Assembly: GCF_004365705.1 (NCBI RefSeq)
Contig: NZ_SOBN01000003.1
Coordinates: 806,001-870,000 of the forward strand
DNA: 64,000 nucleotides
Direction of reading: 5' to 3'
DNA from: Streptomyces sp. 846.5
GTDB taxonomy: Bacteria > Actinomycetota > Actinomycetes > Streptomycetales > Streptomycetaceae
Under the pieces are notes generated by a model. It was not told the DNA's origin. It did no database searches and saw only the letters and a program-made list of their open reading frames with translations. The translations under genes were made by a program, and so were the position numbers. Below, one piece after another: positions 35,337-64,000 of the stretch (position 1 is its first letter; each line of letters opens with the position of its first letter).

Positions 35337-35389
35337 TGTCGCTGCCGCCGGCAGTCCCGCGGTCCCAACCCACCCACCAGGAGGTCTTC

Positions 35390-40704: not shown

Positions 40705-42033
40705 TCACGCCAGTCGGCGGAACACGGGCTTCACCGGTCGCCCGCCCACCCAGGGGGTCGGGTCGGCGGCGTCCAGCGCCTTCCGGTACACCGCACAGGC
40801 CTGGGCCACCACCTCGACGGTGCGGTCGATGTCGGCGTCGCTGAGAGCGCTGCTCACCACGAACGACGGGGCCAGCACCCCGCCCGCGAGGAGTTCGCGC
40901 AGGAACAGGGTGCGGTACGGCTGCGACGGCTGCAGGTTCTCGTCCAGGGTGTTGAAGACCAGGTTGCTGGCCCGGCCCCGGACGACGACGTGTTCGCCGA
41001 CCCCGTGGCTGGCCGCGGCGTCGCGGACGCCGGCGGCCAGCCGCTCGCCGAGGGCGTGCAGCCGCGCGGTGACGCCCTCCTCCACATAGGTGCTGAGCAC
41101 GGCCATCGCGGCGGCCAGCGAGTGCGTCTCCGCACCGTGCGTGGTGGACAGCAGGAACACCCGGTCGCCGGAGTGACGCAGCCCGCCCCGCTCCATCACC
41201 TCGCGACGCCCGGCCAGCGCGGAGACGGCGAACCCGTTGCCCAGCGCCTTGCCAAAGGTGGAGAGGTCGGGAACGACGCCGTACAGGCCCTGGGCGCCCG
41301 CCTCGGACCAGCGCAGGCCGGTGATCATCTCGTCGAAGACGAGCAGGCAGCCGTGGCGGTCGGCCAGCTCCCGGAGGCCGGCCAGGTACCCGGGCGGCGG
41401 CTCGGTGCCCGCGGCGGGTTCCAGGATCAGGCAGGCGACCTCGCCCTGGTAGCGGGTGAGCAGTTCCTCCGTGGCGGCGAGGTCGCCGTAGGGGAACGCC
41501 ACGGTGAGCTCCGTGGTGGCCGCGGGGATGCCGGCGGACATCGGGGTGGTGCCGATGAACCAGTCGTCGACGGAGAAGAACGGGTGGTCGCTGCAGACGG
41601 CCACCCGCAGGCGTCCGGTGACGGCGCGGGCGAGGCGCACCGCGGCGGTGGTGACATCGGAGCCGTTCTTCGCGAACTTCACCATCTCCGCGGTCGGCAC
41701 CGTGGCCAGGAAGCGCTCCGCGGCCTCCACCTCGATGATGGACGGCCGGACGAAGTTGCTGCCGCGGTCGAGTTCCCGCCGCACCGCCTCGATCACGCGT
41801 GGGTGGGCGTGGCCGAGGCTGACCGACCGCAGGCCGGAGCCGTACTCGAGATAGCTGTTGCCGTCCACGTCCCACACCCGGGCGCCGTGGCCGTGGCTGA
41901 TGACCGGGGCCAGACCTTCGGGGTACTGGTCGTCTCCCTTGGAGTAGGTGTGCGCGCCGCCGGGGATCAGGGTGTGCAGCCGCTCGTTCGCCTGACGCGA
42001 CCGGGGCAGGAGGGATTCATTGCTCAGGTTCAT
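40705..42033 (-). CDS. Class III aminotransferase (glutamate-1-semialdehyde aminomutase-like)
   Basis: A 442-aa PLP enzyme. The PLP lysine is K262 in STFGKALGNG. Upstream, GSDVTTAAVRLARAVTG, the LVFDEMITGLR strand and the phosphate-binding STTHG segment all match the HemL-like group. In polysaccharide and natural-product loci such proteins aminate sugar or polyol intermediates rather than make tetrapyrroles. ATG 42033 has GGCGGAGGA upstream. It is the last gene of the locus, separated by 97 bases from the others and flanked by direct repeats, so it may be a later addition. Confidence 0.85.
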   Translation of the reverse strand: MNLSNESLLPRSRQANERLHTLIPGGAHTYSKGDDQYPEGLAPVISHGHGARVWDVDGNSYLEYGSGLRSVSLGHAHPRVIEAVRRELDRGSNFVRPSIIEVEAAERFLATVPTAEMVKFAKNGSDVTTAAVRLARAVTGRLRVAVCSDHPFFSVDDWFIGTTPMSAGIPAATTELTVAFPYGDLAATEELLTRYQGEVACLILEPAAGTEPPPGYLAGLRELADRHGCLLVFDEMITGLRWSEAGAQGLYGVVPDLSTFGKALGNGFAVSALAGRREVMERGGLRHSGDRVFLLSTTHGAETHSLAAAMAVLSTYVEEGVTARLHALGERLAAGVRDAAASHGVGEHVVVRGRASNLVFNTLDENLQPSQPYRTLFLRELLAGGVLAPSFVVSSALSDADIDRTVEVVAQACAVYRKALDAADPTPWVGGRPVKPVFRRLA

Positions 42034-42059
42034 CGAGTGGGTTCCTCCGCCTTACGCCC

Positions 42060-42117
42060 GCCACCAGCGGGTTTCGTGGGGGTACGGGGGGTCGCTCCCC
42101 GGGAAACTGGAGTGGTG
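42060..42117 (+). repeat. Direct repeat, right copy
   Basis: Begins GCCACCAGCGGGTTTCGTGG and ends GGAGTGGTG. It contains a GGGG/CCCC hairpin like the left copy at 40650-40704. It fills most of the gap between the RmlC-like gene and the aminotransferase gene. Confidence 0.65.
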
Positions 42118-42130
42118 TTCAACGCCAACC

Positions 42131-42697
42131 TCAACTCTCTTTCGGCTCCAGGACCTGGGCGAGGCTCGGCGCCTCCCGGTCCCGCTGGGACATCGAGGTG
42201 ACCGGCAGCGGCCAGGGGATGGCGAGCTCCGGGTCGTCGAAGGCGATCGTCACGTCCTCGGTCGGATCGTGCGGGCGGTCGATCCGGTAGGAGACGTCGG
42301 CGGGTTCCGTCAGCGCCTGGAAGCCGTGCGCGCACCCGGCCGGGATGTAGAGGGTCGCCTGCGTCTCCCCGGACAGTTCGAAGGAGGCCCAGTTGCGGTA
42401 GGTCGGCGAGTCCGTGCGCAGGTCCACGACGACGTCGAAGACCCTCCCGTAGGAGCAGCGCACGAGTTTGGCCTCGCCGGCGCCGGAGCGCAGGTGCAGG
42501 CCGCGCAGCACGCCCTGGACCGAGCGGGACACGCTGTCCTGGACGAAGGCGTTCGGGTCCAGGCCGACCGCGCGGATCACGTCGGCGTCGAAGGTGCGGC
42601 AGAAGTAGCCGCGCTCGTCGGCGTACGCCGTCGGCTCGAACAGGTAGGCGCCGGCGATCGCCGGGACTTCGGTGGCCTTCATTCCTGCCGCTTTCAT
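42131..42697 (-). CDS. RmlC-like NDP-4-keto-sugar 3,5-epimerase
   Basis: A 188-aa cupin-fold enzyme of the dTDP-4-dehydrorhamnose 3,5-epimerase family. The catalytic His is H68 in LRGLHLRSG, and Arg/Lys-rich strands follow (AKLVRCSYGRVFDVVVDLR). IPAGCAHGFQAL is another hallmark. It inverts C3 and/or C5 of a 4-keto-6-deoxy sugar nucleotide. No RmlA/B/D set is in the window, so its substrate may come from the locus NTase/epimerase pair or from genes elsewhere. ATG 42697 has GGAGG upstream and overlaps the previous stop by ATGA. Confidence 0.87.
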   Translation of the reverse strand: MKAAGMKATEVPAIAGAYLFEPTAYADERGYFCRTFDADVIRAVGLDPNAFVQDSVSRSVQGVLRGLHLRSGAGEAKLVRCSYGRVFDVVVDLRTDSPTYRNWASFELSGETQATLYIPAGCAHGFQALTEPADVSYRIDRPHDPTEDVTIAFDDPELAIPWPLPVTSMSQRDREAPSLAQVLEPKES

Positions 42698-43941
42698 GAA
42701 GCCTCCTGCGAGGCGTTGACGTGTCCGGTCCCCGGGTACAGCACCGCGCTCAGGGCGGTGAACTGGTGCTCGAGCTGCCGGGCGGCGGCCCGGGTCCGCT
42801 CGGGGAGCTCACGCCGCAGCTCCGCCGACCGCTGCTCCAGCGCCCGGAACTGCTCCAGCAGCCGGTCGGCGTCGACCTCGCGGGCCGGGTGGCAGAACTC
42901 GCCCAGTCCCATCCCCTCCAGCAGCGCCTCGCTCTTGGCCGCGTAGCAGAGCGCGAGCGTCGGCGTGCCGACCTTCAGCGCGCAGATCAGGTTGTGGTAG
43001 CGGGTCGCCACCACGGTGTCGACGGCGGCCACCTCCTTCATCAGGTCGGCCAGCGAGGACGTCTCGGCGAGGGTGACCAGCGGCGAGTCCACCGCGTCCA
43101 GGACCTCGGCGACCGCCGCCGCGTCCACGTCGTCGCCGGTGATCAGCCGGACCGTCCTGCCGTCCTCGACCATCGTGCGGACGAAGCGGGTCATCCCGTC
43201 CAGGTAGCGGCGGTGGATCTGCTCGGCCCGGGCGCGGTCGTCGTTGCCGCCGTAGAAGGCCATGACGCCGACGCCGACCGCGCCACGCGGTTCTGCGGGC
43301 GCGCTCGACGGCTGCGACGGCAGCGAGAAGGCGAGGTCCGGGTAGACCTCGTCGTGCGAGGTGTCCACGCCCATCGCCCGCATCGCGTCGCGGGACTGGG
43401 CGTCCCGGTAGGACCGGTACGCCGCCAGCCGCCCCGACCAGCTGACCAGCGTGCGGACCGACCGACGGCCGATGGTGGCGGCGCCGACGCTGACCAGCGC
43501 GACCCTGGTGCCGAACAGCCGGCCCGAGGCGCAGAGCAGGAACAGCGAGTAGGGGAAGCCCCACGGCCGCAGCGGCAGCGTGGCCTCCAGGACGCCCATG
43601 CCCGGCACGATCACCACATCGTGCCGCCGCACCCAGGCGGCGGTGCGGATGATGTCGACCAGTTTGCCCAGGCCCTTCCCGGCGACGGCACCCGCCCGCG
43701 ACGCGGTCCGGTACTCCCCGGCGTACCAGTGCAGCCGGGTCGCGGGGATCCCGAACCGGGTGGTGACGGCCTCGGGCCCGCCGCACAGCGCGTCCACGAC
43801 CGCTTCCGGGTGTTCGGCGCGGAGGTAGCCGAGTACGGCTTCGAGGGACCCGTCGTTGCCGAGGTTGCCGGAGCCGAGCAGGCCGAACACCCCGACCCGT
43901 ACCGGGGTCCCGTTCCTGGGATTCTCCTGAGCCGATGTCAT
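42694..43941 (-). CDS. Polysaccharide pyruvyltransferase family protein
   Basis: A 415-aa protein. The N-terminal GVFGLLGSGNLGNDGSLEA and the C-terminal VATRYHNLICALKVGTPTLAL (RxHxxIxA motif) identify the PS_pyruv_trans family, a GT-B-like fold. Such enzymes add ketal-linked pyruvate from PEP to sugars, although some members do other transfers. It probably decorates the glycan on the cytoplasmic side. It overlaps both neighbours by 4 bases, so it is tightly coupled to the GT2 and RmlC-like genes. Confidence 0.83.
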   Translation of the reverse strand: MTSAQENPRNGTPVRVGVFGLLGSGNLGNDGSLEAVLGYLRAEHPEAVVDALCGGPEAVTTRFGIPATRLHWYAGEYRTASRAGAVAGKGLGKLVDIIRTAAWVRRHDVVIVPGMGVLEATLPLRPWGFPYSLFLLCASGRLFGTRVALVSVGAATIGRRSVRTLVSWSGRLAAYRSYRDAQSRDAMRAMGVDTSHDEVYPDLAFSLPSQPSSAPAEPRGAVGVGVMAFYGGNDDRARAEQIHRRYLDGMTRFVRTMVEDGRTVRLITGDDVDAAAVAEVLDAVDSPLVTLAETSSLADLMKEVAAVDTVVATRYHNLICALKVGTPTLALCYAAKSEALLEGMGLGEFCHPAREVDADRLLEQFRALEQRSAELRRELPERTRAAARQLEHQFTALSAVLYPGTGHVNASQEAS

Positions 43942-44897
43942 GACTGCCTCCCCTCACGGCCGGCGACGAGGGCGTCGATGGAGACGGTGAGCCGGTCCGG
44001 GTCGACCGGGGCGCGGTCCTCGACCCGCTCGCCGGCGCCCGGCCGGACCCGGCTGGCCATCCACGCGGCCAGGTGGCGGTAGCACGCGCGCCGGTCGGCC
44101 CGGGACAGCGGCGCCCGTTGGATCGCCGCGACGAAACCCCAGACGTACTCGGCGAGCAGCCGGGGCGTCGGGTGCAGCGGGCCTGCCCGGCGCGGGTCCA
44201 GGTTGACGCACCGGGCGCGCATGCCCGGGTTGGCCCGCTCGGCGCGGGTGGGGTGGTCGCGGCGGAAGTACAGCACCTCCGGCACCTGGTGGAAAGGGCC
44301 GTGCAGGGTGAGCTCGGCGACGAAGGTGCGGTCCGCGTGGTGGTAGCTGTCCAGCGGCTTCACCCGGCGCAGCACGTCGGCCCGCATCACCCCGTAGAAG
44401 TCGTCGCCACCGGGCTCGAACAGCAGACTGCGGAAGCGCTCCGGCGGGTGCGGCGAGTCGGTGGCGAGCCCGTACTCGTACGGGACCTTCACCTTGCTGT
44501 CGCCGTCGATGACCGCCTGGCCGGTGTGCGCGAGGAACACCTCCGGGCGCTCGTCCAGCGCCTCCACGCAGCGCCGCAGCAGGTCCCGGGCGTACAGGTC
44601 GTCGTGCGAGGCCCACTTGAACAGCTCGCCGCGGGACTCTTCGAAGACACGGTTGTGGTTCGGTGTGGCGCCGATGTTGCGGGGCAGCCGGAGGTACCGG
44701 ATGCGGGAGTCCTTCTCGGCGTACCGGCGGCAGATCTCCTCGGTCCCGTCGGTCGAGGCGTTGTCGGAGACGATCAGCTCGAAGTCCTCGTAGGTCTGGC
44801 CGAGCAGGGCGTCGAACGACTCGGCCAGGTACTCCTCGCCGTTGTACACGGGCAGACCGATGCTCAGCCGGGGCCGAGCCGCCTTGGGCGCGGTCAT
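43938..44897 (-). CDS. Family 2 glycosyltransferase
   Basis: A 319-aa GT-A glycosyltransferase. It begins PRLSIGLPVYNGEEYL with SDNASTDGT as the nucleotide-binding strand; the DxD-like metal site is WASHDDLYARD (about residues 88-97). The acceptor half is Arg/His-rich. ATG 44897 has GAGGA upstream and marks the change from non-coding-like to GT2 sequence. It probably adds one sugar to the lipid-linked repeat unit at the inner membrane face. It overlaps both neighbours by ATGA. Confidence 0.88.
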   Translation of the reverse strand: MTAPKAARPRLSIGLPVYNGEEYLAESFDALLGQTYEDFELIVSDNASTDGTEEICRRYAEKDSRIRYLRLPRNIGATPNHNRVFEESRGELFKWASHDDLYARDLLRRCVEALDERPEVFLAHTGQAVIDGDSKVKVPYEYGLATDSPHPPERFRSLLFEPGGDDFYGVMRADVLRRVKPLDSYHHADRTFVAELTLHGPFHQVPEVLYFRRDHPTRAERANPGMRARCVNLDPRRAGPLHPTPRLLAEYVWGFVAAIQRAPLSRADRRACYRHLAAWMASRVRPGAGERVEDRAPVDPDRLTVSIDALVAGREGRQS

Positions 44898-46204
44898 GTC
44901 GTCCTCACTTCGTGGATGGGATGGTGGTCGCGCCCGCGCAGGGCGGACCGCAGCTGCAGCCACCACACGGCCGAGCTGCTGATGGTCGCGGCGGCCACGC
45001 CCCAGGCCGAGCCGACGGTGCCGTCCACGACGGCACCGCCGATCCCGCCGACGGCGTAGCAGGCGGAGGCGAACAGCTGGACGCGCAGGCTGAGCCGGGC
45101 CGCGCCGAGCGCGCGCAGCCCGGCGGTCGCGCCGATGCCGAGGCTGGCGCCCGCGACGCTGAGCGTGGCCGGCAGGATGAGCGCCGAGGCGGATTGCCAG
45201 ACGCCGCCGAGCAGCAGCACCCCGACCCGGTCCGGCAGCAGCAGCAGTGCCCCGCCCCAGAGCAGCGCGGCGGCGGCCTGCCCGCCGCTGAGCAGCAGGC
45301 AGAACATGCCCAGTCGGTGCGGGGCCTGCCGCAGCACCCGTCCCGCCTCCGCGACGGTGACCAGCGCCAGCCCGGTCAACACGGCGTAGAACGGGCCGAG
45401 CAGCAGCTCGGCGCCGCGGACCACGCCCACGGCGCTGACCCCGACGATGGCGCTGAGCCCCCACGCCCGCAGCTGGTAGGCGCCGCTGAGGCTGACGTTC
45501 TCGACCAGGTACCGGTAGCCGAGGTCGCGCTGCTCGCGCAGCCACTCACGCGCTCCGGTCAGCCGGGGCCGGATGCCGGACTGGAGGCAGCCGAACCCCG
45601 CGGCCACGGCGGCGGACGCGCCCCAGGCGAGCAGGAAGGCGGGCACGCTGCCCACGCGGGCCGCCACCACCATGGCCGGGACCAGCGCGATGTCCCAGAC
45701 GAGGTCGTTGAGGAACGCCTTCTTCCCGGTGCCGGCGGCGAAGAAGGCGAACCGCCAGGCGTCCTGCAGCAGCAGCGCCGGCAGGATCACGCCGAGACTG
45801 GCGTACGCGGAACCCACATGGCCGCCGACAGCCAGCCCGGCCGCCAGGCACACCGCGCCGATGGCGAGACCGACGCCGAGCGCGGTGCCCGAGGACCGGG
45901 CCACCGCCGGTCGCCAGGACGCCTCCGGCACGCCGCTGAAGCGCACCACGAGCGGGTCGGTGGCCAGCCCGCGGGAGACGTTGAGCACCACGCCGTAGGT
46001 CGCCCAGGCCAGGCTGAACACGCCGAACGCGGTCAGCCCCAGCTCGCGCGCCACATAGATCCCCACCGCGAAGTTGCTCAGGCTGCAGGCCGCCTGGTCG
46101 GCCAGCCCCCAGGACAGCCGTCCGGCTATGCCTCGTCCGGCGCTCTTCCGGGCGTGCCGGCCATGGGCCACCGGCGCCGTCACCGTCCCGCTCTCGGTGG
46201 TCAT
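44894..46204 (-). CDS. Wzx-like polysaccharide flippase
   Basis: A 436-aa integral membrane protein with about 12 hydrophobic helices and a short charged N-terminus (HGRHARKSAGRGIAGRL). The sequence GLADQAACSLSNFAVGIYVAR is like the first helix of MATE/Wzx-type exporters (PST family). It would flip the lipid-linked repeat unit to the outside, where the Wzy-like protein polymerises it. The start at 46204 was chosen because it forms the ATGA overlap with the preceding stop. The family is called from topology and position in the locus. Confidence 0.8.
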   Translation of the reverse strand: MTTESGTVTAPVAHGRHARKSAGRGIAGRLSWGLADQAACSLSNFAVGIYVARELGLTAFGVFSLAWATYGVVLNVSRGLATDPLVVRFSGVPEASWRPAVARSSGTALGVGLAIGAVCLAAGLAVGGHVGSAYASLGVILPALLLQDAWRFAFFAAGTGKKAFLNDLVWDIALVPAMVVAARVGSVPAFLLAWGASAAVAAGFGCLQSGIRPRLTGAREWLREQRDLGYRYLVENVSLSGAYQLRAWGLSAIVGVSAVGVVRGAELLLGPFYAVLTGLALVTVAEAGRVLRQAPHRLGMFCLLLSGGQAAAALLWGGALLLLPDRVGVLLLGGVWQSASALILPATLSVAGASLGIGATAGLRALGAARLSLRVQLFASACYAVGGIGGAVVDGTVGSAWGVAAATISSSAVWWLQLRSALRGRDHHPIHEVRTT

Positions 46205-47484
46205 CCGCCCCCCGCCTTGATCAGGCCGGCCTCCCGCAGGGCGTCGGCCGCGACGGCGACGGTGTCGAAGGGCAGCGCGGACCGCTCGGCGACGTCCAGC
46301 AGACTGTGCTCGCCGTCGGAGAGGCTGAGCACCCAGAGCATGGCCAGCTGGGCCTCCTTGGCGTCGCTGCGGCCGCCGAGCGAGTCGTACAACCCGCGCC
46401 GCCCCAACTGCGGTTCGCCGTAGGGGCTGAGGTTGAGGTAACGCCGGTTGCGGTCGAGCACGGCGAACGCCTCGCGGCAGACCGCGAGGGTGTCCTCCAT
46501 CGCCTCCGGGGTGACGAAGTCCGGGTTGTCCGCCGAGGTGTGGTACTCGGGGTACCCGGCGTACGGGGTCCGGCTGAGCGAGCCCACGCCGAGGTCGAAC
46601 CCGGGCGAGCAGTACTGCCGCTCGTCGTAGCCATACGGGGTGAACTCGTTGACCCGGTGCGGCCGTTCGGAGACGGTCAGGACATGGCGCAGCACCCGGT
46701 CGATCTCCGCGTCGCCGCGTCGGCTCTGCTTGTACGTCAGTTGGCCCGAGTCGCCGGCGCAGGCCAGCACCAGCCCGTGTTTCACCCGCTCCAGCCGCTC
46801 CGTGTTGCGGGCCAGCCAGGTGATCGCCCCGATGGTGCCGGGCGCGAAGATGAACCGGTAGGTGTACCACGGCGTCTGCTGGGCCAGCTCCTGGGCCAGC
46901 GAGACCGCCACCGCGATGCCGGCCAGGTTGTCGTTGGCGAGCGAAGGGTGGCAGGTGTGGCAGGAGACGATCACCTCGTCGGCGACCTGCCCCGGGACCA
47001 CGTGCTCGGCGTAGGTGAGGTGGCCGTCGGCGAGGGTGGAGTCGATGCGCACCTCGTACTCGGCTTCCGGCAGCGCGTCCAGGACCTCCTGGGCCAGGCA
47101 GAACCCCCACGTCGGCGTGTAGTAGCTGGTGCGGTACGGCACCAGGGAGGGCTGGTCCGGCAGGGTGTGCAGGTGTGCGCGCAGCTCGGCCAGCGGCATG
47201 GTCGCCGCCACCGGGACGCTGTAGCCGAGCACATGCAGGTTGGACGCGGCGAAGTCGACGACCCGCCGACCGGCGGGGTCGGCGATGTAGGCGTCCCGGA
47301 TGTTCCACTCCTGCGGCACCGTCCAGTCGAGCACCGGAGTCCCCGTCGGCACCTCGTGCACCTGCAGCGGGAGGTACTCGCCGACGATGTCCAGGGTGGC
47401 CCGCACCCCGTCGCCGGTGATGCTCCGGCAGAGCGGGTACAGCCGCTCCACCAGCGCGTGCATCTGCTCGCCGACCCCGGTCAC
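46201..47484 (-). CDS. DUF4910 aminopeptidase-like protein with winged-helix tail
   Basis: A 427-aa protein. The central domain resembles M28-type zinc peptidases, with VIVSCHTCHPSLANDNLAG (about residues 168-186) providing His and Asp metal ligands; YHTSADNPDFVTPEAM carries a second His. The C-terminus (about 360-427) looks like a small winged helix (LDVAERSALPFDTVAVAADAL). This is the layout of DUF4910 proteins, found in surface-glycan and natural-product loci and without an agreed function. It could hydrolyse or form an amide on a sugar intermediate. GTG 47484 overlaps the preceding stop (GTGA). Confidence 0.8.
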   Translation of the reverse strand: MTGVGEQMHALVERLYPLCRSITGDGVRATLDIVGEYLPLQVHEVPTGTPVLDWTVPQEWNIRDAYIADPAGRRVVDFAASNLHVLGYSVPVAATMPLAELRAHLHTLPDQPSLVPYRTSYYTPTWGFCLAQEVLDALPEAEYEVRIDSTLADGHLTYAEHVVPGQVADEVIVSCHTCHPSLANDNLAGIAVAVSLAQELAQQTPWYTYRFIFAPGTIGAITWLARNTERLERVKHGLVLACAGDSGQLTYKQSRRGDAEIDRVLRHVLTVSERPHRVNEFTPYGYDERQYCSPGFDLGVGSLSRTPYAGYPEYHTSADNPDFVTPEAMEDTLAVCREAFAVLDRNRRYLNLSPYGEPQLGRRGLYDSLGGRSDAKEAQLAMLWVLSLSDGEHSLLDVAERSALPFDTVAVAADALREAGLIKAGGG

Positions 47485-48506: not shown

Positions 48507-48509
48507 GGG

Positions 48510-52415: not shown

Positions 52416-52417
52416 GG

Positions 52418-53755: not shown

Positions 53756-53756
53756 C

Positions 53757-55337: not shown

Positions 55338-55372
55338 GTGCCCGTCTCCCTAGCTGTGTGCGAACAACCGGC

Positions 55373-57337
55373 CTAACAGCGGAACTTGAGCAGCGAAGTT
55401 AACCCCTCCCCGCCGTCCACGGAACCGCTGCCGACGAGCGTGGTGGCGGGCTGCTTGCGACCGAAGCCGGCGGAGTACCAGCCCAGCGGTGGGTCGGTCT
55501 TGCCGCGATGCGCCTGCCAGTCCAGTTGCCCGGGCAGATCGAGGACCGCGGAGCGGTCCTCGCCGTCCACGGCCCAGGTGAGTTGGACCCGGTTTCCCAC
55601 CAGCTCCGCGGCGATCGCAGGGCCGAGGTGGAACGCCAGGCGCACCTCCTGGCGCGGGCCGCGCACCTCGTCGACGATCAGCAACTCCCGGCTCGCGGCG
55701 GTCAGTTGCACCTGGCGACGGTGCACGGAGCCCCGGTAGCCGTCGTGTTCGGCACTCCAGCGGCCGACGCCCCCGCCCGAGGTGTCCGCGGTCAGGACCC
55801 GGCTGCGGGCGTGCCGGGTCCACAGGAACGGGCCGCCGGAGCCGGACTGGTCAACGCCGCCCAGCTGGAGGGTGTTGTGGCCCAGGGTCGACCGGAAGTA
55901 CTGCCGCCACTCGGGCTGCCCGTGGTAGCAGAACGTCCCCGGGTCGGCGAGCACGTCGACCCCGTCGTGCCGGACCTCCACGGACAGCGCGTCGGCGTGG
56001 GCGTGCGCGGCGATGGACAGGAAGCCGTGCGGACCGCCGTCGCAGCGGCACCAGATCTCCTCCGGACCGCGCAGCACGGTCAGGCCCGCGTCGGCGAAAT
56101 GGGCCGGCCGCTGGGCCGGGCGGATCGCCGCCGGTGCGGTTCTGTCCGACGAGGTGCTCCGGATGAGCGCGGCCAGCAGTGGGGTGCGCACATCGGTGCC
56201 GGTCACGGCCGGCCACCAGTCGCGCCGGCCGAACACGGCGTCGCCGGTGGACAGCAGCGAACCCCAGCGGTCGGTGCCCGCGCCGTCCACGACCAATCCG
56301 TGTCCGTCGTCGGCGTCGCCCTGGCGCGGCGGACGCAGGCGGTTGTCCACGACGGCCGCCAGTGCGTCGGTCATCCGCAGCAGTACCAGCCGGACCGACG
56401 CGGGGACCGGCACCTCGGCGGCATCCGCCTCGGCCACCGCGGCCAAGCCGAGTTCCAGCACCAGTCCGTGGTACTCGGTGGCCAGCTCGCGGTTGAGTCC
56501 CGAGTCGAAGGTGTTGCTGTGCAGGTGCCGCTCCAGCGAGCGCAGCGCGTCGGCCCGCCAGCGCGCCGATTCGGGGAACCAGTCGAACGCGCAGGCCCCG
56601 GCGAACTGTCCGGCGGCCTCGGCGATGATGTGGTTGTTCGCCGAGGACCCCCGGCTGGGGAAGGCGGACAGCCAGCGCTGGTGGTGCCAGATCTGCTGCA
56701 GCGCCACCGGGTTGCCCTCGAACAGCGCGGACGCACCCGCCCATCCTTCGAGCAGCCGGCGGACCCACACCCAGGACAGCAGCCGGATGCCCAGCTCGAT
56801 GCCGCTGACCCAGTGGACCCCCCGCAGCGGCGGGTTGGCCTCCCACCACGACGTCAGGTGCTCGGCCACGCGCTCGGCGTAACGGTTCTCCCCGGTGAGC
56901 GCATAGGCGGCGGCGAGCACGGTCAGGTGGTGGTGCCGGGACAGCTCCCAGATCTGCTTGACGTCCCCGACCGCGTCCTCGTCGCGGTACGGCACGTTGA
57001 AGGCGTAGCCCGCCGGAGCGCGGCGCCCGGTCTTCGGGTCGTACCACCAGTCCGGGGCGACGAGGTCGTCGCGGGGCACGCCGAAGTACTCGGCGTGACC
57101 CTCCATCAGCCGGTCCGCCTCGGCGACCAGACGCTTGGCGGCGTCCGGCGGCACGTCGGCGAGGGTCCCGGCGGGCAGCACGGCGGTGAACCGGGCGCCG
57201 GTCACGCTCGGGGCGTCGGGCAGCGCGGACCGCCACCGACGCCTGCGCACCGTGTCGGCCACCCGGCCGCCGACCTCCCGCGGACCCATCCGGGACAGCC
57301 GCCGCAGGTACCAGCCTGCGGTCGTACCCGCGGTCAT
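55373..57337 (-). CDS. Heparinase II/III-family polysaccharide lyase-like protein
   Basis: A 654-aa protein with an alpha-toroid N-terminal half (about residues 60-360) and a beta-sandwich C-terminal half. Family motifs include SSANNHIIAEAAG, ATEYHGLVLELG and the HAHADALSVEV segment with its catalytic/metal His. Such proteins cut uronic-acid glycans by beta-elimination and occur in polysaccharide loci with asparagine-synthase and ADH-GFO/IDH/MocA genes. There is no signal peptide, so export is unclear. Leu-646 is encoded by TTA (55400-55402), the only TTA codon I noticed in the window. ATG 57337 overlaps the preceding stop. Confidence 0.85.
   Translation of the reverse strand: MTAGTTAGWYLRRLSRMGPREVGGRVADTVRRRRWRSALPDAPSVTGARFTAVLPAGTLADVPPDAAKRLVAEADRLMEGHAEYFGVPRDDLVAPDWWYDPKTGRRAPAGYAFNVPYRDEDAVGDVKQIWELSRHHHLTVLAAAYALTGENRYAERVAEHLTSWWEANPPLRGVHWVSGIELGIRLLSWVWVRRLLEGWAGASALFEGNPVALQQIWHHQRWLSAFPSRGSSANNHIIAEAAGQFAGACAFDWFPESARWRADALRSLERHLHSNTFDSGLNRELATEYHGLVLELGLAAVAEADAAEVPVPASVRLVLLRMTDALAAVVDNRLRPPRQGDADDGHGLVVDGAGTDRWGSLLSTGDAVFGRRDWWPAVTGTDVRTPLLAALIRSTSSDRTAPAAIRPAQRPAHFADAGLTVLRGPEEIWCRCDGGPHGFLSIAAHAHADALSVEVRHDGVDVLADPGTFCYHGQPEWRQYFRSTLGHNTLQLGGVDQSGSGGPFLWTRHARSRVLTADTSGGGVGRWSAEHDGYRGSVHRRQVQLTAASRELLIVDEVRGPRQEVRLAFHLGPAIAAELVGNRVQLTWAVDGEDRSAVLDLPGQLDWQAHRGKTDPPLGWYSAGFGRKQPATTLVGSGSVDGGEGLTSLLKFRC
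55400..55402 (-). promoter_or_regulatory. TTA (bldA-dependent type) codon in the heparinase-like gene
   Basis: The codon for residue 646 of 654 is TTA, in GEGLTSLL. In streptomycetes TTA is read by the bldA tRNA, which is fully active only late in development, so full-length product may depend on it. The frame was checked against the gene start. Confidence 0.6.
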
Positions 57338-59505
57338 CGAGTCCGCTCCAACGTCACCGGCGCGCCGGCGGCCAGGCTGGCCCGGACGGCGAAGGTGGCG
57401 GCCGTGGTGGCGGCCAGCGACTCCAGCGGCACCGGCATCGGACCTCCGGTCCGCACGGCCTCCAGGAACGCGTCCAGCTCGGCGCGCTGGCCCTTGTCCC
57501 TGGCCTTGGGCAGCCGCGAACTGACCCACCGCTTACTGCCATGGACCGAGGCGCGGACGAAGTCGTCGAGCCGTAGCACTTGGCCGTCCGAAATCAGGTC
57601 CAGCGTCTCCTTGGGGAAGCCGGGCGCGCCGTTGGAGACGTAGCTGATGGTCGCGGTGGACCCGCCCGGGTAGCGCAGCAGAACCTGCAGGTCCTCGTTG
57701 CCGGGCGTGGTGACCGCGTACACCGAGACCGGGTCGGCCCCCAGCAGCCAGCTCGCCGTGTCGATGAAGTGCCCGCCCTCGCCCTCGAACCGCGAGCCCT
57801 CGGTGTCCTGCTTGAGGTACCAGCTGCCGTGCTCCAGCTTGCCCGCGTTGACCAGGTAGCGCAGGCTCGCTGGGCCGGTCGGGGTGCCGAACCGGCCCCT
57901 CGCCTCCTGCAGCAGCGGCGCGAACCGCCGGTTGAAGCCCACCTGCAGCCGGTCGTTCCCGGACTCCTCCACGGCCGCGAGCACACCGGCCAGTTCGTCC
58001 CCGGTGAGCGCCAGCGGCTTCTCCACGAACACGGTCTTCCCGGCCCGCAGCGCCCGTTCGGTCAGTGCGGCGTGCGAACTGTGCCGGGTGGCCACGAACA
58101 CCGCGTCGACGGACGGGTCGCCGAGCACGGTGTCGAGGTCGGTGGTCGCCTCGGCGAAGCCGAACTTGCGCTGCGCGTTGGCCGCGGACAGCGCCGTCGT
58201 GGTGACCACGGTGGCCAGCTCGACGCCCTCGCGCCGGGCCAGGTGCGGCAGCAGCATCGACGTCGCGTAGTTCCCCGCGCCGATGAACGCCAGCCGCACG
58301 GTCGCCTTGGCAGGCCGGGCCGGGGCCGGGCGCGCGGCCACCGCGGGCACGTCCACCGCTGCGGACACCGCCTCAACCGCAGCTTCGGGATACTGGAACA
58401 GCACCGCCACGGCCTTCAGGCCGCCGTCCTTCAGCAGTTGGTACGTCTCCACGGCGTCGTCGAAGTCGGCGACCTTGGAGACCAGGGGCTCCACGTCGAC
58501 GCTGCCCCGGGCCAGCAGGTCGAGGAAGCAGGCCAGGTTGCGGCGCTCGGTCCAGCGCACATAGCCGATCGGGTAGTCCCGGCCCTCCAGTTCGTACGCC
58601 GGGTCGTAGCGCCCGGGGCCGTACGAGCGGGAGAACCGGACGTCCAACTCCTTCTCGTAGTACGCGTTCCAGGGAAGGTCCAGACGGCACTTGCCGATGT
58701 CGACGATCCGGCCGCGGTCCCGGCTCAACTGCGCGGCCAGCTCGACCGGCTGGTTGCTGCTGCCTCCGGCGGCCAGGTACACCTGGTCCACGCCGTGACC
58801 GCCGGTGAGCTCGGCGACGGCGGCCGCCACGCCGGCGGACGCGGGATCGCCGCAGGCCGTGGCGCCCAGGCGCTCGGCGAGCTCGCAGCGCGTCGGGTCG
58901 GGGTCCACGCCGACCACGCGCACTCCCGAGGCGGCCAGCAGCTGCACCACCAGCTGCCCGATCAGGCCCAGGCCGATGACCAGCGCCACCTCGCCGAGCT
59001 GCGGCTCACCCTGGCGGACGCCCTGCATCGCGATCGACCCGACGGTGCCGAAGGCGGCGTGCCGCGGCGCGAGGCCGTCCGGCACCCGGGCGTAGAGGTT
59101 CTGCGGCACCCAGTTCAGCTCGGCGTGCAGCGCGAACTCATTGCCGGCGCAGGCCACCAGGTCGCCGACCGCCACATCGTCGACGCCGGCGCCGACCTGC
59201 TCGACCACCCCGCACAGCGAGTAGCCCAGCGGCGTGTAGGAGTCCAGCTTGTTCATCACCTTGCGGTAGGTGGCGCCGACTCCATTGGTGGCCACGCTCT
59301 GCATGACCTTGGCCACCTGGTCCGGACGGGAGCGGGCCTTGCCCACCATCGACATGCCGGCCTCGGAGACCTTCATCATCTCGGTGCCGGTGGATATCAG
59401 CGAGTAGAGGCTCCGGACCAGCACACCGCCCGGTTTGCACCCCGGCACCGGCACGTCGAGCAGCGCCAGCTCACCGCTCTTGTAGTTCTGCACAACCTGC
59501 TTCAC
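57334..59505 (-). CDS. Bi-domain oxidoreductase: zinc-type alcohol dehydrogenase fused to GFO/IDH/MocA
   Basis: A 723-aa fusion. Residues 1 to about 350 are a medium-chain dehydrogenase (ISTGTEMMKV, then the NAD motif GLGLIGQLVVQLL, about residue 180). From about residue 400 a second Rossmann domain begins (LAFIGAGNYATSMLLPHL) with VFVEKPLALT, as in GFO/IDH/MocA enzymes. Such fusions recur in polysaccharide loci and probably oxidise a sugar nucleotide or lipid-linked sugar, for example to a uronic acid. GTG 59505 overlaps the asparagine-synthase stop (GTGA), and its own stop overlaps the heparinase-like start. Confidence 0.88.
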   Translation of the reverse strand: MKQVVQNYKSGELALLDVPVPGCKPGGVLVRSLYSLISTGTEMMKVSEAGMSMVGKARSRPDQVAKVMQSVATNGVGATYRKVMNKLDSYTPLGYSLCGVVEQVGAGVDDVAVGDLVACAGNEFALHAELNWVPQNLYARVPDGLAPRHAAFGTVGSIAMQGVRQGEPQLGEVALVIGLGLIGQLVVQLLAASGVRVVGVDPDPTRCELAERLGATACGDPASAGVAAAVAELTGGHGVDQVYLAAGGSSNQPVELAAQLSRDRGRIVDIGKCRLDLPWNAYYEKELDVRFSRSYGPGRYDPAYELEGRDYPIGYVRWTERRNLACFLDLLARGSVDVEPLVSKVADFDDAVETYQLLKDGGLKAVAVLFQYPEAAVEAVSAAVDVPAVAARPAPARPAKATVRLAFIGAGNYATSMLLPHLARREGVELATVVTTTALSAANAQRKFGFAEATTDLDTVLGDPSVDAVFVATRHSSHAALTERALRAGKTVFVEKPLALTGDELAGVLAAVEESGNDRLQVGFNRRFAPLLQEARGRFGTPTGPASLRYLVNAGKLEHGSWYLKQDTEGSRFEGEGGHFIDTASWLLGADPVSVYAVTTPGNEDLQVLLRYPGGSTATISYVSNGAPGFPKETLDLISDGQVLRLDDFVRASVHGSKRWVSSRLPKARDKGQRAELDAFLEAVRTGGPMPVPLESLAATTAATFAVRASLAAGAPVTLERTR

Positions 59506-61421
59506 GCCAGCTCCTTGTTGTCCATCGCGCCGCGGTACCAGTACTCGAGGGTCAGCACATGCCACAGATGCTTGGAGTAGTCCTGCTGCCCGGCGGCGTC
59601 CGCGGCGACCATCCGGGCCAGCGCGTCGCGGCGCAGGATTCCGGAGCGGACCAGCTCGCCGTCGTTCACCACCTCGCGCACCAGCGGCGCCAGATCCCGG
59701 CTCATCCAGGCCCGCAGCGGGGCGCTGAACAGGCCCTTGGGCCGGTGGACGATCTCGCGCGGCAGGATCGAGAGGGCCGCTTCCTTGAGCACGGCCTTGC
59801 TCTGCCGTCCGACGATCTTGCGGTCGCCGGGCACCGCGAACGCCGCCCTGACCACCTCGACGTCCACGTACGGCACCCGCACCTCGGTCGACGCGGCCAT
59901 GCTGGACCGGTCCGTGTAGGCGAGGTTGAGGCCCGGCAGGAACATCCGGGAGTCGGCCAGGCACATCCGGTTGACGAAGTCGTCGAGCTCGTTGTCCTGG
60001 TAGACGTCCCGGTGCTCGGTCAGCACGTCCTCGACCGTCCAGGCCAGGTCCGGATTGACCAGGGCCAGCAACTCGTCCTGGTCGTACATGGTGTAGCTGC
60101 GCCGGAACGCGGTCTCCTCGGGCAGGTCGGCGAAGGAGAGGAACCGCTTCGCGAAGCGCACCGACCGGTACCCCCGGTTGGCCGTGGCGACCGGCAGCCG
60201 GTTCACCGTCGCGGACACCCCGCGCCGCAGCGGCCCCGGGATGCGCTGGTAGCGCAGCGCGAGCTGGTTGGCCAGGTGCTTGCGGTAGCCGGCGAACAGC
60301 TCGTCGGCGCCCATGCCCGAGAGCATCACCTTGACCCCGGCCTCCCTGGCGGCCTGGCAGATCAGGAAGGTGTTGATCGCGGCGGGGTCGCCGATCGGCT
60401 CGTCCAGGTGGTACGCCATCTTCGGCAGCAGGTCCAGGACCTGCGGTGCGATCTCGATCTCGTGCAGGTCGACGCCGAACTGCTCGGCCACCTGCCGGGC
60501 GTAGCGCAGATCGTCCGGCATCGCCTCGAACCTGGCGTCCTCGGCCCGGAACCCGATCGTGTAGGCGGAGATGCCGGACTGGTGGCGGGCCGCCAGCGCG
60601 GTCAGGTAGCTGGAGTCGAGACCGCCGGAGAGGAAGGTCGCCACTGGTACGTCGGACAGCAGATGACGCCGGGTCGAGTCCTCGACGATGGCGGCCAGGT
60701 CCGGGAGTTCGCCGCTGAGGGCGCGCTCCCGCCCCTCGGCGGCGACGTCCTTCAGGTTCCAGAACCGGCCACGCTGCACGCTGCCGTCGGGCCGGCACCG
60801 CAGCCAGCTCCCCGGCGGCAGCTTCTCCGCCTCGCGGAAGGCACAGCGCGAGTCCGGCACCCAGTAGTACAGCAGTGAGGCCACCAGCGCCGCCTGGTCC
60901 ACCTCCAGTGACCCGCCGCTCACGGCGGCGAGCGCCTTGAGCTCGGAGGCGAACACCAGGCCGGTGCCGCGCCGGAGCAGGAACAGCGGCTTGATGCCGA
61001 GCTGGTCGCGGGCGAGCACCAGCTCACCGGTGCGCTCGTCGAAGACCGCGAACGCGAACATGCCGCGCAGCCGGGGCAGGCAGTCCGTGCCCCAGCGCCG
61101 CCAGGCCTCCAGCAGCACCTCGGTGTCGGAGCTGCCCCGGAAGCGCACCCCGGCGGCGGCCAGCTCGGCACGCAGCTCGGGTGCGTTGTACAGCTCGCCG
61201 TTGTAGGAGAGGGAGAGGCCGTCCGAGACCATCGGCTGGGCGCCGGTCTCGGACAGGTCGATGATGGCCAGCCGACGGTGCCCCAGGTGCACCTCGCTGT
61301 CACCGACGGCGTGGCTGTACCGGCCCTCCCCGTCCGGACCGCGGTGGGCGAGGATGTCGGTGAGCCGGTCGGTGACGGCCTTCCCGTCCGGCCATCGGTA
61401 AGCGCCTGCTATGCCGCACAT
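59502..61421 (-). CDS. asnB: Asparagine synthase (glutamine-hydrolysing)-like amidotransferase
   Basis: A 639-aa AsnB-type enzyme. The N-terminal MCGIAGAYR has the nucleophile Cys2, with RGPDGEG and SYNGELYN as further glutaminase motifs. The synthetase half has the PP-loop FLSGGLDSS (about residue 262) and MLSGMGADELFAGY. In polysaccharide loci such proteins are thought to amidate uronic acid carboxyls rather than aspartate. The bi-domain oxidoreductase directly downstream could supply that uronate (inference). The start at 61421 follows the Wzz-like stop by two bases. Confidence 0.88.
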   Translation of the reverse strand: MCGIAGAYRWPDGKAVTDRLTDILAHRGPDGEGRYSHAVGDSEVHLGHRRLAIIDLSETGAQPMVSDGLSLSYNGELYNAPELRAELAAAGVRFRGSSDTEVLLEAWRRWGTDCLPRLRGMFAFAVFDERTGELVLARDQLGIKPLFLLRRGTGLVFASELKALAAVSGGSLEVDQAALVASLLYYWVPDSRCAFREAEKLPPGSWLRCRPDGSVQRGRFWNLKDVAAEGRERALSGELPDLAAIVEDSTRRHLLSDVPVATFLSGGLDSSYLTALAARHQSGISAYTIGFRAEDARFEAMPDDLRYARQVAEQFGVDLHEIEIAPQVLDLLPKMAYHLDEPIGDPAAINTFLICQAAREAGVKVMLSGMGADELFAGYRKHLANQLALRYQRIPGPLRRGVSATVNRLPVATANRGYRSVRFAKRFLSFADLPEETAFRRSYTMYDQDELLALVNPDLAWTVEDVLTEHRDVYQDNELDDFVNRMCLADSRMFLPGLNLAYTDRSSMAASTEVRVPYVDVEVVRAAFAVPGDRKIVGRQSKAVLKEAALSILPREIVHRPKGLFSAPLRAWMSRDLAPLVREVVNDGELVRSGILRRDALARMVAADAAGQQDYSKHLWHVLTLEYWYRGAMDNKELA

Positions 61422-61423
61422 GT

Positions 61424-63025
61424 CTACCGCGTCTCCTGCTCGTTGTCCGGGACCCGCACGGGCCATGACGGCCGCCTCATCTGCAAGGTGGTCGTCCCGT
61501 CCGTCCGGCCCGTTCCGTCCGGCCTGCTGGTCCCGTCCGGCCTGGCCGTCGCAGCCAGCCGTGCCGACCACTCGTTCCCGACCCGCAGCGCGGTCTGCGC
61601 GCCGTCCCACAGGGTTCCGTCGGTGCGGTCGCGCGGATCGGGGTCGATCAGCACCACGCCGGCCACCGCGATGCGCAGGTCCGCGAGCTGCCGTGCCACG
61701 GTGTGCAGCCAGGCGGCGCTGCCGTGCCCGGCGCGGACCACGAGCACGGTACGGGTGCCGAGGTACTGGAGGTCGGTCCAGGCCGTGCCGGGCGCGACCG
61801 AGCCGACGCCGATCCGGTCGCTCTGGGGCGCCCTGGCCGCGACGTACTCGCCGCGGACCACGACCGGGTCTCCCGGCGCCCGGTGGCCGGGGAAGCGCCC
61901 GTCGGGCAGACCGTCGACGACCACCAGCGGCTCCTCCTGCGCCAGCGCCCTGGCCAGGTCCATGGCGATCACGGCCGTGCTGGGCGCGCAGCCGAGTTCC
62001 AGCAGCGACACCGGTTCGGTCGAGCTGAGCAGGGTGCGGACCAGGGTCCTGGTGAGCTGCTGGTGCGCGTCCTTGGTGCTTCGGCGCTGCCACAGCCTGA
62101 GCGGCCGGCGGGGTGCGGGGCGCAGCTCGGCGATGACCGAGGCCCCCAGGTTCGCGGCGATGTCGCGGCGCAGCACCGGACGGTCCGCCACCACCGTGCC
62201 GATCGCGGCCAGCGCGATCCCGAGGACGAGCCCCAGGACGGACCCGATCCCGGCGTCGGTGACCCCGGTCTTGGCCAAGGAGTGCTTCACCAGGTGCGGA
62301 ACGTCCACGACCTGCGTGCCGGAGATGAGTTGCGGTGTGCCCACCCGCGCCTCCTGGGCGCGCTGGTCGAAGTCGGCGATCTGCGAGGTGAGCGCGGCCC
62401 GGCGGGTGTAGAGCGACTCGAGGGTCGCCGCCGAGCCCGGGTCCTTCGTCGAAGACCCGTTGCCGATCGACTTGTTGACCTGGGCGAGTTCGCTCCGCAG
62501 GCTGTTGCCCTGCTGGAGCAGGGCGTCGGCCTGGGCGTTCGCGTCCGCGTTCAGCCGCGCCACATGGTCCGCGACGAAGGCGTCCGCCAGCGCCTTGGCC
62601 TTGGCCAGCGCGTCCGCGGGGCTGGTGCCCTTCACGGTGATCTGCAGCACGTTGTTGGTCAGGCCGATGCCCTGGTAGTCCGCGAGGAAGGCCTCCGGGG
62701 TCTCCGGGGTCCCCGAGGACTTGAGGGTCGCCAGGGCCTTGCCGGCGATCCGGGTGGTCTTCAGCAGCGCCACGTCCGTTTTGATCAGCGTTCCGGGATC
62801 GTTGGGCTGGTCCTGCGCATGCGCGACCAGGACCTCGGTCGCCGCGGTCGGGGCTGCCGGCAGCAGCACCGCGATCGCCCCGCCGAGCAACAACCCCAAC
62901 AGCGCCAGCGTGCCCCAGAGCCGGCGGCGTCGGCGCACCGCCACCACCAGCGCGCCCACGTCCACCAGCGGAGTGGCGGACGGCGGTTCCCCGGGCAGGT
63001 TCGTCATGGACGGGTTCGTCGTCAC
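61424..63025 (-). CDS. Wzz/Wzc-like polysaccharide co-polymerase with degenerate kinase domain (copy B)
   Basis: A 533-aa membrane protein. Two transmembrane segments (about residues 38-58 and 262-284) flank a coiled-coil extracytoplasmic region (QGNSLRSELAQVNKS), as in Wzz chain-length regulators. The C-terminal part (about 330-500) has the layout of a BY-kinase P-loop domain, but at the Walker A position it reads CAPSTAVIAMDLARALA, lacking GxxGxGKS/T, and Walker A-prime has VVDGLPD. The tail has three PDGT/TDGT repeats. It probably controls chain length without phosphotransfer. GTG 63025 overlaps the next gene's stop. Confidence 0.82.
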   Translation of the reverse strand: MTTNPSMTNLPGEPPSATPLVDVGALVVAVRRRRRLWGTLALLGLLLGGAIAVLLPAAPTAATEVLVAHAQDQPNDPGTLIKTDVALLKTTRIAGKALATLKSSGTPETPEAFLADYQGIGLTNNVLQITVKGTSPADALAKAKALADAFVADHVARLNADANAQADALLQQGNSLRSELAQVNKSIGNGSSTKDPGSAATLESLYTRRAALTSQIADFDQRAQEARVGTPQLISGTQVVDVPHLVKHSLAKTGVTDAGIGSVLGLVLGIALAAIGTVVADRPVLRRDIAANLGASVIAELRPAPRRPLRLWQRRSTKDAHQQLTRTLVRTLLSSTEPVSLLELGCAPSTAVIAMDLARALAQEEPLVVVDGLPDGRFPGHRAPGDPVVVRGEYVAARAPQSDRIGVGSVAPGTAWTDLQYLGTRTVLVVRAGHGSAAWLHTVARQLADLRIAVAGVVLIDPDPRDRTDGTLWDGAQTALRVGNEWSARLAATARPDGTSRPDGTGRTDGTTTLQMRRPSWPVRVPDNEQETR

Positions 63026-64000
63026 GCCGAACCTCCCCTCAGGTCCGCGCCCACCGTGACCGCCGGTGCGGCATTGTCCGCGGGACGGTCGGCGGAGCGC
63101 ATCGGACGAGTACGGACCGTCGTGGCCACGACATAGCCGACGACCTCGTGCCGGGCGTCCTCACAGGCCTCGGCGATGCCGCCGAGCTCCCCTCCGCTCA
63201 GGCTGCCCGCGCTGAGCAGGACCAGGGCGCCGGACTCGGTGACGCGGTCCGGCACCACCGGCCGGGAGGCCGAGACCCGTACCACCCGCAGCGCGGGATC
63301 GCTTCCGGACTCGGCGACGAGCCGGGCGGCGGCGCGCCCGGCGCTCTCGTCGTCCTCCGGGACGACGACCAGCAGCCGCCGGGGGGCCGGCAGTTGCTCC
63401 CTGAGTCGGATGCCCACCCGCCGGTAGCGGATCTGCCGGCTGGCCTCGTCACCCGAGGTCCGCGCGGTCGGCAGGTCCCACCGGGTGTCGACGCCCAGCA
63501 GCCATCGGATCCAGCCGATCGCGCCGCGGCCCCGCGGCCCGCGCGCCCGCCCTTCACCGGGTACGTCGACGGTGCCCAGCAGCACCGACCCCAGCGCGGC
63601 GCTGATCTCCCGCTCGGTGCGCGCCCGGCGGCCGGACCGTGCGGCGGTGAGATGGCCGATGACGGTGAGCAGGAGGAACAGCAGTGCCCCGCCGCCGACG
63701 AGCTCCGCCCTGGTCGGCGGTGCCTCACTGGTCGGCAGGGCCGCCGACCCCACCACGACCATGCTGCCCTGGTTGGACGCCGGGGCGGTCTGGTCCAGTT
63801 TGGTGACGGCCTCCTCCAGTGCGGTGCGCAGCTGTTCGAGCTCGGTGCGGGCCTGGACGCCCTCCACGGTCTGCCCCGGACTGACCCCCTCGGACAGGGC
63901 GGTGATCCGGCTGCTGGTCTGCGTCACCAGCTTCTGCAGCGCCGCCGTCTGCGTCGCCGAGGCGGAGTCGGCATTGGTGTTGGCGATCTGCGAGGCGAAG
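63022..64000 (-). CDS. Wzz/Wzc-like co-polymerase with degenerate kinase domain (copy A, cut by window edge)
   Basis: The C-terminal 325 residues are visible; the start lies beyond the right edge. A coiled-coil region (LEQLRTALEEAVTKLDQ) leads to a transmembrane helix (GGGALLFLLLTVIGHL), then a basic linker and a P-loop-like domain. Its Walker A position reads VVPEDDESAGRAAARLVAE, without GKS/T, so it is again degenerate. The ATP-site Asp region SGALVLLSAGSLSGGELGGI differs from active BY-kinases. It overlaps copy B by GTGA. It is very likely the first visible gene of the locus. Confidence 0.8.
   Translation of the reverse strand, partial: FASQIANTNADSASATQTAALQKLVTQTSSRITALSEGVSPGQTVEGVQARTELEQLRTALEEAVTKLDQTAPASNQGSMVVVGSAALPTSEAPPTRAELVGGGALLFLLLTVIGHLTAARSGRRARTEREISAALGSVLLGTVDVPGEGRARGPRGRGAIGWIRWLLGVDTRWDLPTARTSGDEASRQIRYRRVGIRLREQLPAPRRLLVVVPEDDESAGRAAARLVAESGSDPALRVVRVSASRPVVPDRVTESGALVLLSAGSLSGGELGGIAEACEDARHEVVGYVVATTVRTRPMRSADRPADNAAPAVTVGADLRGGSA

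Follow-up and report, generated by a model that had tools for sequence, protein, structure and literature searches.

A 21-gene locus in Streptomyces sp. 846.5, very probably a Wzx/Wzy-type exopolysaccharide operon orthologous to the ste (ebosin) cluster

The DNA analysed here (the window) is a stretch of 64,000 nucleotides from Streptomyces sp. 846.5 (C3:806001-870000, contig NZ_SOBN01000003.1), whose 9.03-Mb genome is assembled in five contigs. Its right part carries most of a locus which is very probably a Wzx/Wzy-dependent exopolysaccharide operon and an orthologue of both the ste (ebosin) cluster and SCO0381-SCO0401 of Streptomyces coelicolor. Genes were called on the window and its right flank using codon usage learned from clear genes. 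The minus strand carries 18 called genes from 40705 to 64000, the last of which (63022-64389) crosses the window end; a preliminary description, made from the letters alone, had arrived at the same count of coupled, single-strand genes. The whole locus has 21 genes in 27.8 kb (minus strand, 40705-68503). Its genes are closely packed: the 20 junctions comprise 12 four-base overlaps, four gaps of 1-3 bases and four gaps of 28-97 bases. The gene calls and the Pfam and NCBIfam families bear out the preliminary view that this is a nearly complete Wzx/Wzy-type surface-glycan pathway.

Coordinates below follow window numbering, and genes are on the minus strand unless stated otherwise. The ste numbers are aligned by counting from ste5 as the initiating phosphoglycosyltransferase (PGT); numbers other than 5, 7, 8, 9, 10, 15, 17 and 22 are given by position. 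The position of ste22b is taken from its name, and hence also those of ste23 and ste24. Three genes lie right of the window: the PGT of the Bac_transf family (66977-68503, ste5; PF02397, 215.4 bits), a nucleoside diphosphate (NDP)-sugar dehydrogenase (65632-66948, ste6; TIGR03026, 380.3 bits against a cut-off of 189.8) and a GT4 glycosyltransferase (64386-65588, ste7; PF13692, 82.8 bits). The two Wzz-type co-polymerases are encoded at 63022..64389 (SCO0384, ste8) and 61424..63025 (SCO0385, ste9). An asparagine-synthase-type amidotransferase (59502..61421, SCO0386, ste10; PF00733, 314.9 bits) is followed by a bi-domain oxidoreductase, a fusion of Zn-dehydrogenase and Gfo/Idh/MocA domains (57334..59505, SCO0387, ste11; PF00107, 63.3 bits, and PF01408, 85 bits), and by a heparinase II/III-type lyase or epimerase (55373..57337, SCO0388, ste12; PF07940, 167.4 bits). 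Next are a right-handed beta-helix lipoprotein with its lipobox at residue 22 (53757..55337, SCO0389, ste13; PF13229, 53.6 bits), the putative Wzy polymerase (52418..53755, SCO0390, ste14) and a second GT4 (51183..52415, SCO0391, ste15; PF13692, 98.8 bits).

The remaining genes include enzymes for an unusual sugar. They encode a sugar C-methyltransferase (49951..51186, SCO0392, ste16; PF08484, 212.9 bits), a glucose-1-phosphate cytidylyltransferase-like enzyme (49154..49954, SCO0393, ste17; TIGR02623), a PIG-L de-N-acetylase (48510..49157, SCO0394, ste18; PF02585, 57.4 bits), an SDR-type NDP-sugar epimerase/dehydrogenase (47481..48506, SCO0395, ste19; PF01370, 162.4 bits) and a DUF4910 peptidase-like protein (46201..47484, SCO0396, ste20; PF16254, 383 bits). 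The Wzx flippase (44894..46204, SCO0397, ste21), a GT2 glycosyltransferase (43938..44897, SCO0398, ste22; PF00535, 98.6 bits) and a polysaccharide pyruvyltransferase (42694..43941, SCO0399, ste22b; PF04230, 84 bits) follow. The run ends with an RmlC-type sugar 3,5-epimerase (42131..42697, SCO0400, ste23; TIGR01221, 167.2 bits, cut-off 155.75), in which the RGLH motif is 94-100% conserved, and a class-III pyridoxal phosphate-dependent aminotransferase or HemL-like aminomutase (40705..42033, SCO0401, ste24; NF004856, 705.4 bits, cut-off 486). Family matches confirm the parts named earlier, namely the pyruvyltransferase, GT2, GT4, amidotransferase, oxidoreductase fusion, heparinase-type enzyme and beta-helix protein, and likewise the unusual-sugar enzymes (PIG-L, nucleotidyltransferase, C-methyltransferase, RmlC and class-III aminotransferase).

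The initiating enzyme had been expected to the right of the window. It is present on the same strand about 3 kb beyond the end, with the GT4 and NDP-sugar dehydrogenase genes in between. A PF02397 profile search of the genome found five places, among them this gene (C3:872998-873561, 218.2 bits). Its KFRTM, SLVGPRP and QISGRS motifs are 95-100% conserved in 107 sequences, and the product is a predicted polyprenyl-phosphate sugar-1-phosphate transferase. Elsewhere in the genome, further PGT and dehydratase-like genes lie close together (C4:41627-88645 and C1:1995096-1996684), a hint of other surface-glycan loci.

Of the two predicted co-polymerases, the one at 61424..63025 passes the PF02706 cut-off (34.4 against 25.5 bits) and has two hydrophobic segments; the other falls below it, at 20.4 bits. 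Neither of these two proteins has a Walker A kinase motif. The flippase has no Pfam match, and a PDB sequence search with it was empty at E <= 10. Its AlphaFold model (pLDDT 85.9, pTM 0.84) matches MATE, WzxE and MurJ structures in Foldseek at a probability of 1.00, with WzxE (9g9n) at rank 2 (E 8.0e-8, TM 0.67/0.70). This indicates a flippase of the MOP superfamily, although sharing a fold does not identify the substrate. Wzy falls below its Pfam cut-off (20.3 against 31.7 bits), and its predicted structure is WaaL/SEDS-like with WaaL as best solved fold. The flippase and polymerase labels of the preliminary description thus lack a Pfam match above cut-off, but the predicted folds support a WzxE-like flippase and a WaaL-like polymerase. 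WaaL is a ligase, and the Wzy-like protein could instead transfer a short oligosaccharide in the manner of an O-antigen ligase, with a glycolipid or a glycoprotein glycan as product. However, Wzy and WaaL share a common fold, and two Wzz-like proteins in the operon imply chain-length control; this alternative is highly improbable.

A PAP2-family membrane phosphatase is encoded convergently with the operon (40024..40596, plus strand; PF01569, 51.6 bits). It has a match in all 30 loci whose 3' side is covered and in two further plasmid loci (32/32), and its PSGH and HYPTD motifs are 97-100% conserved in 31 sequences. The enzyme is a candidate for recycling undecaprenyl pyrophosphate. In genome G142 only 23% of the gene is matched, and the piece lies about 3 kb from the aminomutase gene within the fetched stretch. 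At the same distance, in the first 4.7 kb of that stretch (L136), the C-terminal part of the aminomutase occurs once more and adjoins the PAP2 piece, which suggests an insertion with duplication. Further left in the window (32283-36799, plus strand) are genes for two neighbouring F5/8-type-domain proteins, one with a weak glycoside-hydrolase-2-like match and the other with DUF1996.

The preliminary description had called the locus unassigned and had recognised no characterised streptomycete polysaccharide in it. The label does not hold, because the gene order, by printed annotation, closely matches SCO0381-SCO0401 and the ste cluster, both of which are in print; a match of this kind is what the description itself had named as refuting it. 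In S. coelicolor, SCO0381-SCO0401 is described as a 'deoxysugar/glycosyltransferase cluster' and a possible single operon. In the table printed in PMC3610822, SCO0381-0388 are a glycosyl transferase, a dehydrogenase, a hypothetical protein, two exopolysaccharide transport proteins, an asparagine synthetase, a bi-domain oxidoreductase and a hypothetical protein; SCO0389-0394 are a lipoprotein, a hypothetical protein, a transferase, a methyltransferase, a transferase and a hypothetical protein; and SCO0395-0401 are an epimerase/dehydratase, a peptidase, a hypothetical protein, a glycosyl transferase, a possible membrane protein, an epimerase and a glutamate-1-semialdehyde aminomutase. Compared through this table, the 21 genes here stand on one strand in matching order, and the named functions agree, although its five 'hypothetical' entries and one 'membrane protein' entry do not discriminate.

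SCO0381-0401 has in turn been reported to resemble, and termed orthologous to, the ste cluster of Streptomyces sp. 139, which is needed for the exopolysaccharide ebosin (PMC4398421). That link is already in print; what is new here is its extension to this genome. Gene functions are printed by ste number in PMC11078827; ste5, ste8 (Wzz) and ste17 (glucose-1-phosphate cytidylyltransferase) are named in PMC8902715, and ste10 is an asparagine synthetase according to a reference title in PMC4347597. Position by position, the printed functions of ste5, 7, 8, 9, 10, 15, 17 and 22 fall on fitting genes here. The ste cluster differs in also having DasR/DasABC-like ste1-ste4, ste25-27 and orf1-2 (PMC8902715, PMC11078827); no genes of these types were matched among the three right-flank genes searched.

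Published quantitative PCR primers give a further comparison. The ste17 primers fall in the cytidylyltransferase gene of this genome in the correct orientation, at 49590 (no mismatch) and 49462 (one mismatch). The ste5 primers lie in the PGT gene with 3 and 4 mismatches, and for ste8 only the reverse primer is found in the expected gene, with 4 mismatches. Among 80 named loci, which are the best 80 of 420 candidates and not a random draw, the ste17 pair maps within the expected open reading frame (ORF) in 76 of the 76 with this ORF called (0-4 mismatches in total, 145-bp product), and the ste5 pair inside the PGT ORF in 75 of 76 (5-10 mismatches in total). As a control, one 20-kb stretch was put through 50 simple shuffles and searched with slightly tighter limits; the best pairs then had 8 (ste17), 12 (ste5) and 12 (ste8) mismatches.

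Several points weigh against the assignment to ste and SCO0381-0401. It draws on printed tables, primers and a paper on DasR. SCO0399 is printed as a 'possible membrane protein', whereas the pyruvyltransferase at that position here has no hydrophobic segment. PMC11078827 places ste13 and ste22b under polymerisation and export, a poor fit to the beta-helix and pyruvyltransferase genes. The ste8 pair lies inside the Wzz1 ORF in only 19 of 77 named loci, with 7-13 mismatches; the best shuffle reached 12, and these primers are therefore hardly informative. The ste8 forward primer, allowed up to two mismatches, matched 58 of 394 family genomes, the reversed control was about as frequent, and no listed site in a locus-bearing genome falls at the polymerase coordinates of that genome.

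Papers on S. coelicolor mostly treat its locus as one of the specialised-metabolite clusters, and the C-methyltransferase is TylC3-like. The 21 genes might therefore be read as a glycosylated secondary-metabolite (deoxysugar) cluster and not as a polymer locus. Yet no polyketide synthase, non-ribosomal peptide synthetase or other scaffold family was found among them, the PGT, Wzx, Wzy and Wzz proteins serve polymer assembly, and replacement of ste7 is reported to have altered exopolysaccharide composition (PMC4347597). A metabolite cluster is very unlikely.

The polymerase is found in 107 of 394 family genomes at an identity of at least 67%, and DUF4910 is found in 107 of 394 as well; compared by eye, the two genome lists are identical. 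Of 14 genomes in the genus, 3 carry the polymerase, and the full-length oxidoreductase fusion is present in these three as well (87-100%). Synteny was inspected in 29 of the 106 other polymerase-positive family genomes, hand-picked across the ranking; in 26 of them the complete set of 21 genes lies on a single strand in a constant order. Relatives that had lost the core of the pathway were not seen in this sample, while 287 of the 394 family genomes are without the polymerase. G294 lacks the beta-helix gene alone. An apparent loss of the PGT in G009 was rejected, as the locus sits at a contig end. A rearrangement in G179 was rejected as well, since the locus there is divided between two contigs, one of which ends inside it. 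Median identities of the 21 proteins range from 62% (Wzz1) to 91% (C-methyltransferase). Among 72,556 plasmid records three have the polymerase; all three are Streptomyces plasmids with the 21 genes in order plus PAP2. Neither this distribution nor the two-module structure described below was found in the literature searched, most subscription journals being outside its reach.

Three side observations concern individual loci. On the linear plasmid of Streptomyces sp. KN37 a SapB/AmfS-type lanthipeptide locus (lanKC, peptide and two ABC transporters; L107 34600-40986) lies about 1 kb past PAP2. An 18.7-kb contig binned to another genus (L039, labelled a metagenome-assembled genome of Hamadaea sp.) consists of fifteen operon genes that keep their order and have 62-92% identity; transfer or mis-binning would explain this. 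In G106 and G391, DUF4910 aligns in two pieces within one open frame, 22-25 codons longer than the query, which suggests an in-frame insertion near residue 233.

Outside the family the locus also appears in parts. Here the core is defined as the NDP-sugar dehydrogenase, GT4, amidotransferase, bi-domain oxidoreductase, heparinase-like enzyme and polymerase. In a class sample of 394 genomes the polymerase has a match in 14, ten in this family and four outside. Like the present locus, those of G474, G439 and G444 have the six core genes (40-69% identity), with other genes varying; unlike it, their fetched stretches contain neither the C-methyl sugar cassette nor a GT2 or pyruvyltransferase gene. 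This lack is less certain for G474 and G444, because contigs end within range and the left side of the G444 locus is outside its fetched stretch. G742 has core and cassette together, plus GT2 and pyruvyltransferase. DUF4910 is found in 57 of 388 class genomes; for 46 of these no polymerase match is listed (the two class samples are not identical). Nine of these 46 were fetched: three have the C-methyltransferase, nucleotidyltransferase, PIG-L, SDR and DUF4910 genes in matching order, in three, DUF4910 is accompanied only by a nucleotidyltransferase of 32-35% identity, and three have other or weak partners.

The cassette also occurs by itself. The loci in Shinella (L176), Mesorhizobium (L177), Nonomuraea (L178), G686, G476 and G446 have the C-methyltransferase, nucleotidyltransferase, PIG-L, SDR, DUF4910 and RmlC genes together, as here, but the bi-domain oxidoreductase, heparinase-like enzyme, amidotransferase and Wzy were not found in these stretches. 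Of these six, only the Shinella locus has the aminomutase, and on the rhizobial plasmids of Shinella and Mesorhizobium the cassette adjoins other glycan genes. This pattern suggests that the locus combines two units that can be exchanged: one is the polymer core, the other a cassette that makes a single activated sugar. A GT2 match lies near all seven cassettes outside the family (24-57%, often partial), whereas a pyruvyltransferase lies near two, in Shinella and G742. The tie of these two genes to the cassette is weak, because GT2 is a common family and the pyruvyltransferase accompanies only two of seven; the latter count weighs against the scheme proposed below. DUF4910 has been linked to sugar-modifying genes across many phyla, and a role in a modified surface carbohydrate has been proposed (PMC4000134). 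The Clostridium protein CA_C2195 (PDB 3k9t) belongs to the same family (474.3 bits), but is surrounded by a different gene set, and its function is a proposed one.

The chemistry of the cassette sugar can be sketched from its enzymes. The best solved relative of the C-methyltransferase is D-mycarose 3-C-methyltransferase (4rv9, 294.8 bits). The SDR keeps the S/T, Y and K residues, and its STCSVYG and YAESK motifs are 97-100% conserved in 108 sequences; at the STCSVYG position, an Asp-Glu pair is found in 4,6-dehydratases. Its nearest solved relative is 6vo6, which we take to be a Campylobacter heptose enzyme oxidising C4. The SDR of the locus scores 22.3 bits against the CDP-glucose 4,6-dehydratase model (TIGR02622), for which the best protein in the whole genome reaches 86.5 bits against a cut-off of 278.45. 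The classical CDP-4-keto-6-deoxyglucose (RfbF/RfbG) route was rejected on this ground. Because of the STCSVYG motif, the kinship to 6vo6 and the lack of a passing dehydratase, our guess is that an activated sugar would be oxidised at C4 without 6-deoxygenation. Both the missing dehydratase and the cytidylyltransferase, which at 188.3 bits is below its curated cut-off of 300.25, count against the scheme proposed below. In the heparinase-like enzyme the NNH, EYH, HAHAD and GHN motifs, presumably the putative catalytic ones, are 96-100% conserved in 112 sequences. Hydropathy revealed no hydrophobic N-terminal segment, and the protein has no lipobox; it may therefore be an intracellular enzyme, perhaps one that epimerises uronate.

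An assembly scheme can be proposed. The WbaP-like PGT would load the first sugar phosphate onto undecaprenyl phosphate, and the two GT4s and one GT2 would extend it; with a PGT and three glycosyltransferases, the repeat would therefore contain about four sugars. The NDP-sugar dehydrogenase would supply a uronic acid, which the bi-domain oxidoreductase, heparinase-like enzyme and amidotransferase could remodel into an epimerised, amidated uronate. The cytidylyltransferase, SDR, RmlC, C-methyltransferase, aminotransferase, PIG-L and DUF4910 cassette would yield a C-methylated amino sugar, perhaps added by the GT2 and ketalised by the pyruvyltransferase. Wzx would then flip the unit and Wzy would polymerise it under control of both Wzz proteins, while the lipid carrier may be recycled by PAP2.

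The same PGT/Wzx/Wzy/Wzz logic is common to capsules, and the beta-helix lipoprotein could hold or trim a polymer at the surface. The product might accordingly be a wall- or lipid-anchored glycan, capsular or teichuronic-like, and not a freely released exopolysaccharide. Against this, none of the 21 genes was recognised as encoding an attaching enzyme (the rest of the genome was not searched for one), and ebosin is isolated from culture supernatant (PMC4347597). Anchoring is a serious alternative that we regard as unlikely.

Expression data are in print for S. coelicolor. SCO0381-0401 are up in the second, differentiating mycelium, with log2 values of 0.8 to 4.0 among the rows available (PMC3610822). 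Four of five measured proteins are lower in a bldA mutant, six of the genes are lower in an ECF-sigma mutant, and a strain with dispersed growth has reduced levels of SCO0381 and SCO0382. TTA codons are printed for SCO0383 and SCO0399, whereas the sole TTA of the 21 genes here is codon 646 of the heparinase-like gene. Its own PGT and dehydrogenase genes have none, and bldA control is therefore not shown for this operon. In related loci the first two genes often bear TTA: among called ORFs of the 80 named loci, the PGT gene does in 41/76, the dehydrogenase gene in 34/77 and either in 44/76. Because these ORFs come from related species, the counts do not represent independent events; some TTA codons early in the PGT gene also hinge on the choice of start. 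Frequencies are middling in the heparinase-like (15/80), amidotransferase (13/80) and beta-helix (9/78) genes, and five other genes have TTA in 1-4 named loci each. The C-methyltransferase, nucleotidyltransferase, PIG-L and SDR genes have it in none of 74-76 each, and in 0-2 of 107-110 in the wider set.

We tentatively propose, as a possible though doubtful reading, that the locus makes one constant streptomycete exopolysaccharide, kept like enterobacterial common antigen and not varied like most Wzx/Wzy glycans. It would be bldA-timed in many species, with a repeat of about four sugars. Among these would be a remodelled uronamide and a C-methyl amino sugar that carries pyruvate and arises by a dehydratase-free CDP route with C4 oxidation by the SDR. 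The predicted four sugars fit poorly with the roughly eight monosaccharides printed for ebosin. The two printed lists (PMC4347597, PMC11078827) differ, and both exceed four; the mismatch could reflect contamination, several polymers or a transferase encoded elsewhere. If this reading is right, the many-sugar composition in print would not describe what this operon makes. The fixed gene order, joint occurrence and modules give concrete predictions for a repeat unit with conflicting published compositions. The 'deoxysugar' cluster of S. coelicolor, so far an orphan, and the exopolysaccharide cluster known from pharmacological work are thus very probably one locus, which is also present in roughly a quarter of the family genomes sampled.

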